Shown piece by piece: positions 3,356 to 11,643 of a stretch of DNA of 14,725 nucleotides; the stretch's first letter is position 1; each line of letters opens with the position of its first letter. The notes below the pieces were generated by a model. The model was given only the letters and a program-made list of their open reading frames with translations. It searched no databases and was not told the DNA's origin. The stretch lies in contig OMIW01000196.1 in assembly GCA_900299205.1 (NCBI GenBank), positions 1 to 14,725 on the forward strand, written 5' to 3'. Position numbers and translations under genes: made by a program. This DNA is from Pseudomonadota bacterium (GTDB lineage Bacteria > Bdellovibrionota_C > UBA2361 > OMIW01).

Positions 3356-4339
3356 TCACCACTCTTCACTCTTTCGATGACGCATGATGAGCGTTGCGAG
3401 GCAGAGGAGGGGGGCAAAGGAAACAACGGTGGCTTGATTGGAGGAGTCCTCCAGATAACGCCTGCCATTTGTAACTCCTTCCTGGAAGAAAAACCGCGCC
3501 CAGTCATCCGGTTGGAACCCTGATTGGGTCCAATGGATGTACAAGCCAAGTGCCTGGGGCCGACTATCTGGCGTCATCCGTCCCTTGGAGCTGTCAGGAA
3601 TGATCATTCCGACGTACAAGGTCTTCCCGCTTTTATCTCGAATCCAGATGATATCACCCGCTTCGAGAAACAGGAGACGCTCGGTTCGAGATGGCGAAGG
3701 CTTACGATAAACGGTCCACTCCATACCTTCCATACCGGTCTCGAAGTACCCGTATGGAGTCCCCTGGAGGAACGTATTTCGGCCACGGGTAAGGGGATGA
3801 AGATAAAAGACGGAGAGGAACCCATACCACCAATTCAGGAGTGGTAACCGGATGAGTCGAGCGCTGAGCCCTCGGTCGAGACCGTTATCCCCTGCGCTCT
3901 CGGACAGGAATAATCCGGTCCAGTCATCTCGACCCCGTCCCAGTTGGGCGGTCGTACAGTAGATGAACCACTGGTCGGAGCCTCGATAGCCATCGAGTTT
4001 GGCATGCTCAACGTCCTCCCGCAGCTGAGGGGGTATCTCATTGACCTCGAACCAAGAGTCGGTGGGAGACACGGGGAACACAATTCCCGCGAAGAGAATT
4101 GTTCCATCGTCATTCCAAACGGTGAGATGGTCCCCGGCTTTCACCGTCCAGACGAAGCCATTGGCTCGGATACACGGAACGCATTCACGCTCCCGGCCGG
4201 GATGGATTCCCGTTATACCCTGGATAATAGAAACCATGACAAAAACCGATATTGAGGCGGATACTACTGACACCCGCTTCAAACTGCAATGGAGGTGACA
4301 ATTTCGCCAGCTAACGGCGAAATGAGCGCACGCGCGCAT
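3356..4339 (-). CDS. membrane-anchored protein with two tandem copies of an unknown domain
   Basis: The family is not recognised. From the ATG at 4337-4339 the product has 327 residues; a TTG at 4280-4282 (residue 20) would instead give a tidy signal-anchor start (K, R, then a hydrophobic run to about residue 45), so the start is uncertain. The body contains two similar units, about residues 62-147 and 206-287. Each has a WTV strand, an AGD turn, a D-x-G-x-x-(L)-(F/Y)-x-G strand, a Q-(W/F or similar) segment and a terminal DDW-x-x-(L/F)-F motif. A hydrophobic segment follows each unit (about 163-181 and 304-319), and the protein ends with a basic tail (RHRKSEEW). The layout suggests beta-rich domains outside the cytoplasmic membrane. 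It is divergent from murF, with a terminator behind it, so it is probably a single-gene transcript. Confidence 0.7.
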   Translation of the reverse strand: MRACAHFAVSWRNCHLHCSLKRVSVVSASISVFVMVSIIQGITGIHPGRERECVPCIRANGFVWTVKAGDHLTVWNDDGTILFAGIVFPVSPTDSWFEVNEIPPQLREDVEHAKLDGYRGSDQWFIYCTTAQLGRGRDDWTGLFLSESAGDNGLDRGLSARLIRLPLLNWWYGFLSVFYLHPLTRGRNTFLQGTPYGYFETGMEGMEWTVYRKPSPSRTERLLFLEAGDIIWIRDKSGKTLYVGMIIPDSSKGRMTPDSRPQALGLYIHWTQSGFQPDDWARFFFQEGVTNGRRYLEDSSNQATVVSFAPLLCLATLIMRHRKSEEW

Positions 4340-9723: not shown

Positions 9724-10302
9724 GTGAATACGAAATGTCGTCGCGAGCTGATGGTCTTGGATCGGTTTTCCGAGGCGCTGCAGTTCGCATCATCAAGACA
9801 TGAGTCTCAGGAGTATCCTGGTACGTCGACGCCCTACGTCGCGCACCTGTGGATGGTGTCGATGCTGTCGATGGACCTCTGTCGGAGGCATCGCAGAATG
9901 GATCTCGACGGTGTGTTTGCGGGGACGGTAGGAGCCCTCAAAGACACCCTCGTAAAGAGCAAAGTTTCCCATAGAGAGTTGGCCAACAAGTTTGGTCGCT
10001 CGATTGCCGATGCTGTTCTCGCCCTTTCTGAGAATGCATCACTCTCGAAATATGATCGGCTGCCTGACAGCCTTCATCGTATTCGTCAGCAGCGAAAGGA
10101 GGTGTGGTTGGTCAAGATCGCCGGTCGTATCTGCGATCTTGAGTCGATTCATCGAAATCGCTCGCGTCGCGCTCCGAAGTTTGCGTTCGGCTATCTCGCT
10201 GAATCGGCTCTTATCTTAAAAGAGCTGGGTTCTATTGGCGGCGATGGTCCTGATCTACTTCGCGAGAGGATAGAGGCGTGTCGAGCTGCGTTAATCAGGT
10301 AA
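9724..10302 (+). CDS. degenerate HD-domain protein of the SpoT/MESH1 fold, catalytic residues lost
   Basis: The 192-residue frame starts at GTG 9724 (AAAAGG lies very close, two bases away); ATG 9751 is an alternative start giving 183 residues. The fold resembles the alarmone-hydrolase HD domain: ALQFASSRHESQ (about 18-29), PYVAHL with the first histidine H41 kept, a helix KFGRSIADAVLALSE (89-103), and SLHRIRQQRKEVWLVKIAGRI (116-136). The hallmark HD is K73-D74 (ALKDTL), the catalytic E-D pair is V77-K78, and the last metal-binding Asp is G134 (AGRI in place of ADRI). It therefore should not bind the metal or hydrolyse (p)ppGpp. The structural residues and the open frame are intact, so it may be a regulatory pseudoenzyme; early decay is the alternative. 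An intact paralogue lies downstream. Confidence 0.7.
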   Translation: MNTKCRRELMVLDRFSEALQFASSRHESQEYPGTSTPYVAHLWMVSMLSMDLCRRHRRMDLDGVFAGTVGALKDTLVKSKVSHRELANKFGRSIADAVLALSENASLSKYDRLPDSLHRIRQQRKEVWLVKIAGRICDLESIHRNRSRRAPKFAFGYLAESALILKELGSIGGDGPDLLRERIEACRAALIR

Positions 10303-10311
10303 CGGAAGGAT

Positions 10312-10741
10312 GTGGGGCTCGAAGCGTTGCAAGAAAAGAGTCAGGTATCCCATCTTTTTTCCTTAGAGGGGTCTCTCTCTGTGATGGTATGTCAGGAGTA
10401 CGGAAGGTTCTTCATTATTGGTGGAGGAGGCAAATCCTCTTCCACCTCTTATCTCATGGAGTTGGCTCTGAAAAAACATTCATGGTTTTCACGGCAGCTC
10501 CAATCGTGCAGACGGAAGGTGGCGATTGCTGTATGAATCGTGGTTGGACGTTTTTGAGAAAAAACAGACAGTCTCAGTGAGCCAGTTTGTTGGTCATTCG
10601 GCTGAAATGCGATTCAAGGGTCATTAATGTTTGCCTCAATCTGTTGCAGTGAATTGCTTTTGCTCGAGTCGTGGGGCTGACGGATATCCAATTTCACTAA
10701 TCGGCAGTTGTCGGTCGGCAGTATCAAGGTTGAAGGAGTGA
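10312..10741 (+). pseudogene. frameshifted remnant resembling yqeC (selenium-dependent hydroxylase accessory protein)
   Basis: No intact gene fills the 543 bp between the two HD-domain genes, but pieces of one protein appear in order across all three frames. From GTG 10312 one frame gives RFFIIGGGGKSSSTSYLMELALKK, like the YqeC P-loop GGGGKTT.m..LA.EL. After a six-A run (10471-10476) the next frame gives TFMVFTAAPIVQ, where YqeC has its VLVTTTTKI strand. A third frame gives LLYESWLDVFEKKQTVSVSQ...RFKGH (to the stop at 10625), like the YqeC ...V.VG....KL.G stretch. Then SELLLLE (first frame) and ADGYPISLI (third frame) match VLVEADG...P.K. At least three frame changes are needed, so the gene is dead. 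The right end is approximate. The match is by eye and memory only; YqeC belongs to selenium/molybdenum-cofactor hydroxylase maturation. Confidence 0.55.
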
Positions 10742-10758
10742 GACTAAGCTGAAATATT
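10730..10758 (+). promoter_or_regulatory. putative promoter for the second HD-domain gene
   Basis: TTGAAG (10730-10735) and AATATT (10753-10758) are separated by the optimal 17 bases; each hexamer matches its consensus at four of six positions. It lies about 90 bases before the chosen start of the downstream HD-domain gene, at the ragged end of the pseudogene. The call is moderate to weak because both boxes are imperfect. Confidence 0.35.
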
Positions 10759-10762
10759 CAGC
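10748..10762. promoter_or_regulatory. 15-bp dyad overlapping the putative -10 box
   Basis: GCTGAA-ATA-TTCAGC is a perfect six-base dyad with a three-base centre. It covers the candidate -10 hexamer upstream of the second HD-domain gene, a position where a bound repressor would block transcription. Confidence 0.4.
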
Positions 10763-10845
10763 ATCCCTCGGTATTGACGAATTCAATGACAGCACCCTGC
10801 GGTCGGTGCGCGCGAGAAGCGATATCCTACCCAATAAGGACAGAT

Positions 10846-11643
10846 ATGTTCGGTAATCGGAGAAATAGTCACGGTGCGCGAGATCTGAACCCTGGTGATG
10901 AACATCTGCCGCCGGAGTTGGCTCAAGCACAAAGAGGGCACTTGTCGGGGAGATTGCCTCGGGTGCCGGGAGTAAGTGAGCGAGCGGCGAGCAGTGTGGC
11001 TCGACCGAAAGAGGAGGCCTTAGCTCTGCTCCCAAGGGTGACCGAGTTTGCCGCGCATGCTCATATGGGTCAGGTTTATCCGGACATGAATTCGCCCTAT
11101 TTTGATCATCTGGAGCGGGTCGCCCAGACGGCTGTCCGCATCTGTAATGGGTCAAGGTACCGTTGGCAGTCCAAGCCTGATAGAGACTCAGTTGTAGTTC
11201 TGGCCTATCTTCATGATGTACTGGAGGATACACCGGTAACATTTGTTGAGCTGGAGTCTCATTTTGGGACTCGCATCGCCGATAGCGTTCTCGCAATGTC
11301 TAAAGATGAAGCGATTAATAAAAGAGTGAGAATGATGGACAGCCTCTTTCGGATAAGTTCGCTCAAGGAACTGAGAACCGAGACGGTGGTCGTAAAGCTA
11401 GCGGACCGGATTGAGAATCTGGAGCCGTACCTTCTTCCAAATAGTAAAGCTCCCTGGTACGTTCGCAAACAAAACGCGGCAGAGGATTATCTAAAGGAAT
11501 CTCATCTCATTCTGGCGTGGGCAAAAAGGCACTATCGAGGTCCGGGTACCCGACTGCTCCGAGACCAGCTTGCCGAGGCGTGGCGGCACCATGAGGAGAG
11601 GTTCCCGCATCGGAGCGATCCGTGGTCTGATTTCTTCTTCTAA
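10846..11643 (+). CDS. HD-domain hydrolase, SpoT/MESH1-like, intact active site
   Basis: The start ATG 10846 is chosen for its AAGGA Shine-Dalgarno five bases upstream, giving 265 residues; a longer frame from 10774 has no family support. Residues 1-55 are polar and low in structure. The HD domain spans about 60-200: PYFDHLERVAQTA with H88, LAYLHDVLEDTP with H123-D124 and the catalytic E127-D128, SHFGTRIADSVLAMS (138-152), and VVVKLADRIENLEPY with D187. These are the metal and catalytic residues of the (p)ppGpp 3'-pyrophosphohydrolase domain of Rel/SpoT and of MESH1. There is no synthetase or TGS domain, so it is a stand-alone hydrolase. (p)ppGpp is the most likely substrate; other nucleotide substrates, such as NADPH for MESH1, are possible. 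It is a paralogue of the inactive HD protein upstream. Confidence 0.8.
   Translation: MFGNRRNSHGARDLNPGDEHLPPELAQAQRGHLSGRLPRVPGVSERAASSVARPKEEALALLPRVTEFAAHAHMGQVYPDMNSPYFDHLERVAQTAVRICNGSRYRWQSKPDRDSVVVLAYLHDVLEDTPVTFVELESHFGTRIADSVLAMSKDEAINKRVRMMDSLFRISSLKELRTETVVVKLADRIENLEPYLLPNSKAPWYVRKQNAAEDYLKESHLILAWAKRHYRGPGTRLLRDQLAEAWRHHEERFPHRSDPWSDFFF

Follow-up and report, generated by a model that had tools for sequence, protein, structure and literature searches.

What is a protein with the fold of a small alarmone hydrolase (SAH) and without most of its catalytic residues doing beside an intact relative? SAHs break down the nucleotides by which cells signal starvation. The question is raised by two neighboring genes in the 2.45-Mb draft genome (~90% completeness) of an uncultured bacterium, whose products we refer to as UP (upstream) and DN (downstream). 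The window, i.e., the whole stretch of 14,725 nucleotides that was analyzed, is a complete contig of this genome, in which UP and DN are flanked by metH and by the gene of a solute-binding protein of the phosphate-binding type. A first-pass annotation of the window had described the two as HD-domain proteins, one dead and one live, and such a pair does exist: its coordinates and motifs were correct, and both members carry an HD_4 domain (Table 1). The numbering of UP used here, with the first catalytic histidine as H41, matches the GTG start. For DN, the sequence shows a good AAGGA ribosome-binding site ahead of the ATG, which is more likely to be the start than the TTG that opens the longest frame.

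Table 1. Features of the window and of two further contigs of the same genome.
Feature	Position	Strand	Size	Basis
UP, SAH homologue and predicted pseudo-hydrolase	9724..10302	+	192 aa, GTG start (183 aa from the in-frame ATG at 9751)	signature HKDVKGD, Pfam HD_4, structure model
DN, intact-looking SAH homologue	10774..11643 or 10846..11643	+	289 aa (TTG 10774) or 265 aa (ATG 10846)	signature HHDEDDN, Pfam HD and HD_4, structure model
N-terminal extension of DN	10846-11007	+	~54 residues	low model confidence
Terminator-like hairpin	10420..10446	+	11 pairs, weak T tail	fold z-score -2.4
Epimerase and DUF1611/DgcN-like genes	586-2837	-
Open frame	3356-4339	-	327 aa
Third short HD_4 protein	C123, L164:1114-1785	-	223 aa	HD_4 match under the Pfam cut-off
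RelA_SpoT-matching protein	C194, L160:1267-2388	-	373 aa	E 1.2e-4, under the curated cut-off

UP and DN are homologues of small alarmone hydrolases

Both proteins exceeded the curated cut-off of Pfam HD_4 (UP, 5.6e-8; DN, 7.9e-7), with DN also matching Pfam HD, which confirms that UP as well as DN belongs to the HD superfamily. The two are 36% identical over ~190 residues (E 4e-22), a similarity far past chance. By sequence, the best solved relative of each was the Pseudomonas aeruginosa SAH (PaSAH; 6yvc; UP 2.1e-12, DN 3.3e-10), and the same structure was the best fold match for both. A profile of the protein family scored 5e-53 against 6yvc, compared with ~1e-25 against human MESH1. The fold had initially been called SpoT/MESH1-type; the underlying homology holds through HD_4, but the closest solved relative is PaSAH and not MESH1 or Rel.

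The AlphaFold model of UP was excellent (pLDDT 93.9, pTM 0.91) and superimposed on 6yvc with a Z of 24.3 and an rmsd of 1.8 over 173 residues, values which, given that the alignment behind the model was built from intact relatives, indicate compatibility with the fold and not stability. The alignments used for modeling were composed of sequences from the window and the genome collection only, both plasmid rows being left out. The HD part of DN was modeled well and its first 54 residues poorly; this N-terminal extension is without counterpart in the relatives.

UP lacks five of the seven catalytic residues

The Mn2+-binding and water-activating residues of DN are complete, i.e., H88, H123-D124, E127-D128, D187 and N191 in the numbering of the 265-aa form, and all but N191 had been named correctly in the first-pass annotation, which counted from the same ATG. 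DN therefore combines a PaSAH/MESH1-related HD_4-type domain with intact catalytic motifs (HHDEDDN), and is predicted to be an intact-looking alarmone hydrolase. At the same positions UP has H41, K73-D74, V77-K78, G134 and D138, such that K, V, K, G and D replace H, E, D, D and N, and two of the seven catalytic residues are kept. The changes of HD to KD, of ED to VK and of the last metal Asp to Gly that had been reported for UP were reproduced by alignment. The accompanying statement that it keeps only H41 was half right: 'KD' retains its Asp, D74, so UP has two of the four metal ligands rather than one histidine alone. Outside the catalytic set, K103 of the conserved SK motif has become E, and the PPxxW stretch is gone.

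UP thus has the size and fold of an SAH, i.e., a single HD_4-type domain of ~180-210 aa related to PaSAH and MESH1, but reads HKDVKGD where an SAH has an intact site (H, HD, D and the acid pair of HDxxED). Judged from its sequence, it is an SAH homologue and not a functional member of the group. With H, E, D, D and N gone from the site, Mn-dependent hydrolysis by UP is very unlikely, and the protein is probably non-catalytic. It might still hydrolyze something via a rearranged site, as H41 and D74 remain; we regard this as highly improbable, with two of the four metal ligands and both ED residues lost, and with relatives inactivated by mutation of the HD Asp or the ED Asp alone (Tde-SAH D74A, PMC10434055; MESH1 D66K, PMC9894426).

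The dead signature was unique to UP. The full site was found in DN and in all 122 other HD sequences of the alignment, which comprised 80 genome-collection relatives, three from plasmids and the phylum's long Rel-type domains. It was found again in 35 further loci, a few of them already in the first set, that were gathered with UP as the query. These came from three phyla, those of a Chloroflexota, a Cyanobacteriota and a Bacteroidota relative, with 251, 386 and 395 genomes searched, respectively. Taken together, the active site of SAHs is otherwise strikingly uniform, being kept in ~115 relatives from several phyla.

A pair seen in a single genome

Amongst these ~115 related SAHs there was no other dead one, and a search of ~1,090 genomes with UP as the query yielded neither a dead copy nor an adjacent pair. 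Searches of the bacterial family, the phylum, viral contigs, phages, genome-collection relatives and three phylum samples gave no orthologue of UP. The bacterial family is sampled by this genome alone, and the phylum's 44 other genomes contained no adjacent pair, nearly all of their matches being long Rel-type proteins. The side-by-side conservation in relatives that had been proposed as a check was, accordingly, not observed. A second HD copy was absent from the sequence examined around 80 related loci; when the genomes of 12 relatives were searched whole, one had an SAH in triplicate, with the copies on different contigs. Of the 1,032 genomes in the three phylum samples, 34 carried such SAHs, nearly always as one copy and never as two adjacent ones. 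Across the 80 loci, the three phylum samples and the 44 phylum genomes, then, UP and DN do not form a conserved pseudoenzyme-enzyme gene pair, a term that calls for several lineages.

The sporadic distribution seen here matches that described for SAHs in general (PMC3153485). Plasmids carried intact relatives only, at most 37% identical to UP and 45% to DN, and viral contigs and phages gave no match. At metH loci in the order, none of the other genes of the window lay within ~1.5 kb. No account of a dead SAH or of an SAH pair turned up in the literature searched. The dead SAH is thus a single observation in one draft genome from a poorly sampled phylum.

UP and DN sit on very long branches, so trees cannot place either of them, and their sisterhood (support 71/10; AU p 0.33) was neither shown nor rejected. 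The two have 10 family-rare residues in common, compared with a mean of two for random pairs, and UP shares 12 such residues with a clostridial SAH that is not part of a pair. UP and DN may have arisen by duplication within this lineage or through two independent acquisitions.

Decay or retention of UP

The first-pass annotation had offered early decay as the simpler alternative: UP would be a duplicate or an acquired copy that lost its site under relaxed selection, with a stop or frameshift yet to come. Its long branch and its occurrence in a single genome are in keeping with this, as is the presence of other alarmone hydrolases in the genome (DN, a long Rel and a third HD_4 protein). A drifting UP, however, would lose conserved columns everywhere. 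Amongst the 35 non-catalytic columns with a conservation of 95% or more in the protein family, UP keeps 27 and DN 26, and of the seven catalytic columns they keep two and seven, respectively; the test of catalytic against non-catalytic loss in UP is of modest strength (Fisher p 0.021) and rests on those seven columns. In columns less than 50% conserved, UP and DN alike keep 10 of 75. The losses of UP are therefore concentrated in the catalytic set, which does not resemble random decay.

The five lost catalytic codons of UP carry at least seven base changes by sequence, yet the frame is open, with no stop and no indel. The synonymous codon choice remains gene-like (z 2.9) and the fold model is confident, both of which also speak against decay. 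In neutral-drift simulations, a weak substitute for dN/dS, a UP-sized frame stayed open in ~1-7% of runs with 30-40% of residues changed, and in 33-43%, i.e., a third or more, with ~10% changed. As such short drift often leaves the frame open, a very recent decay would be compatible with what we see. In view of the constraint on the fold and the selective loss of the active site, early decay is nevertheless the less likely reading, to which we give a real but minor share of the probability. UP is best read as an SAH that is catalytically dead but retains its fold, and we put the probability that it is both without catalytic activity and maintained as a functional protein at roughly 0.55.

Possible roles of a non-catalytic UP

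As a retained protein, UP would be a PaSAH-like SAH that has lost its Mn2+/water machinery and kept its fold, a pseudo-hydrolase beside the intact DN. It would not hydrolyze alarmones and would act by binding: UP could either join DN in a mixed dimer, of which it would form the non-catalytic subunit, or serve as a ligand-binding regulator. The lysines K73 and K78, which occupy the former positions of the His ligand and of the acidic Asp, could hold nucleotide phosphates without a metal, and their placement suggests a metal-free anion site. The loss of K103 and PPxxW may weaken nucleotide binding by UP.

Several SAHs have been reported as homodimers (PMC10434055), which makes a mixed UP-DN dimer physically reasonable; by this analogy, we put it forward tentatively, at a low probability. 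A regulator that binds its ligand without a metal would account for UP about equally well. A more elaborate version, in which a free-standing pseudo-SAH with two lysines in place of the metal site binds alarmones without hydrolysis and regulates the adjoining SAH, forming a heteromeric, allosterically controlled SAH, is likewise speculative. The heteromeric, self-regulated hydrolase suggested at the outset is thereby one of several comparable options.

The description of the genes as tandem holds in that they are neighbors on the same strand, but they are not tightly linked, being 471 bp (TTG start of DN) or 543 bp (ATG start) apart. The gap is of lower G+C and contains the terminator-like hairpin; Rfam gave no match in the window and no RNA element was found in the gap. 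With a gap of this length and a hairpin, co-transcription of UP and DN is not indicated; the arrangement suggests separate transcription and argues against tight co-expression. Separate transcription would suit a UP that works by itself, binding alarmones or nucleotides as a sensor or decoy, without a physical link to DN. Such a role would also agree with the exchange of a metal ligand and an acid for two lysines, one of which, K78, is the change of MESH1 D66K, a protein that is inactive yet binds ligand (PMC9894426). The disappearance of K103 and PPxxW, both conserved in the family, weighs against it, and we consider a sensor or decoy rather doubtful.

Comparison with known systems

PaSAH (PA0431; PDB 6YVC, 6Z3N, 6Z3O), a member of the PbcSpo2 family (PMC10434055), is alike in fold, length, H26xxQ, PYxxHL and motif order. 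Its site is full and it hydrolyzes (p)ppApp and (p)ppGpp, whereas UP is without five of the seven residues; DN differs from PaSAH in its extra N-terminal stretch. A dead HD of the same superfamily is present in gamma-proteobacterial RelA, whose HD domain is without the HDxxED motif and has been kept as a regulator or switch (PMC8012599). In RelA, however, it is a domain of a long synthetase, whereas UP is free-standing, SAH-sized and located beside an intact SAH.

Human MESH1 D66K (PDB 5VXA, 9CHY), which is catalytically inactive and was crystallized with NADPH (PMC9894426), shares with UP, where it gave K78, the Asp-to-Lys change in HDxxED. It is an engineered single mutant, whereas UP is natural and has four more changes in the site. 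A natural dead SAH with a kept fold would be the natural counterpart of MESH1 D66K and, if the fold is indeed kept, a ready test of SAH-dimer regulation via a non-catalytic subunit. A precedent for the mechanism comes from the trypanosomatid pairs AdoMetDC/prozyme and DHS/dead DHS, in which the dead paralogue activates the live one (PMC5201418, PMC3663545); these enzymes are unrelated and their complexes have been proved, whereas that of UP and DN is a proposed one.

Other genes of the window and alarmone genes of the genome

At one end of the window, a gene for an enolase-superfamily epimerase adjoins a DUF1611/DgcN-like gene. The two resemble a D-glutamate or L-Ala-D/L-Glu epimerase pair, with the DgcN score under its cut-off. 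The 327-aa open frame matched no Pfam or NCBIfam family above cut-off, and PADLOC returned nothing relevant.

Elsewhere in the genome, contig C159 encodes a long, full-length Rel whose HD domain is intact, and a gene that follows one for an ABC transporter encodes a third short HD_4 protein. The latter contains the motifs YINHP, LLHDSVEDQ and KLADFSEN and keeps the first five catalytic positions; the last two fall outside the alignment, but the sequence has KLADFSEN. With the full-length Rel and this further HD_4 protein present, UP and DN are not the only possible alarmone hydrolases of the genome. A toxSAS toxin-antitoxin module with an SAH as antitoxin was considered for the locus and rejected, as there is no synthetase gene nearby and the RelA_SpoT matches of this genome are on other contigs, the long Rel on C159 and a weak match on C194. 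The 373-aa protein on C194 contains stretches (FGLKMVV, KDYLSESRAKNSGWKAIKLVV and FEVQIQP) that resemble a divergent RelA/SpoT nucleotidyltransferase, and is possibly an unusual alarmone synthetase-like protein.
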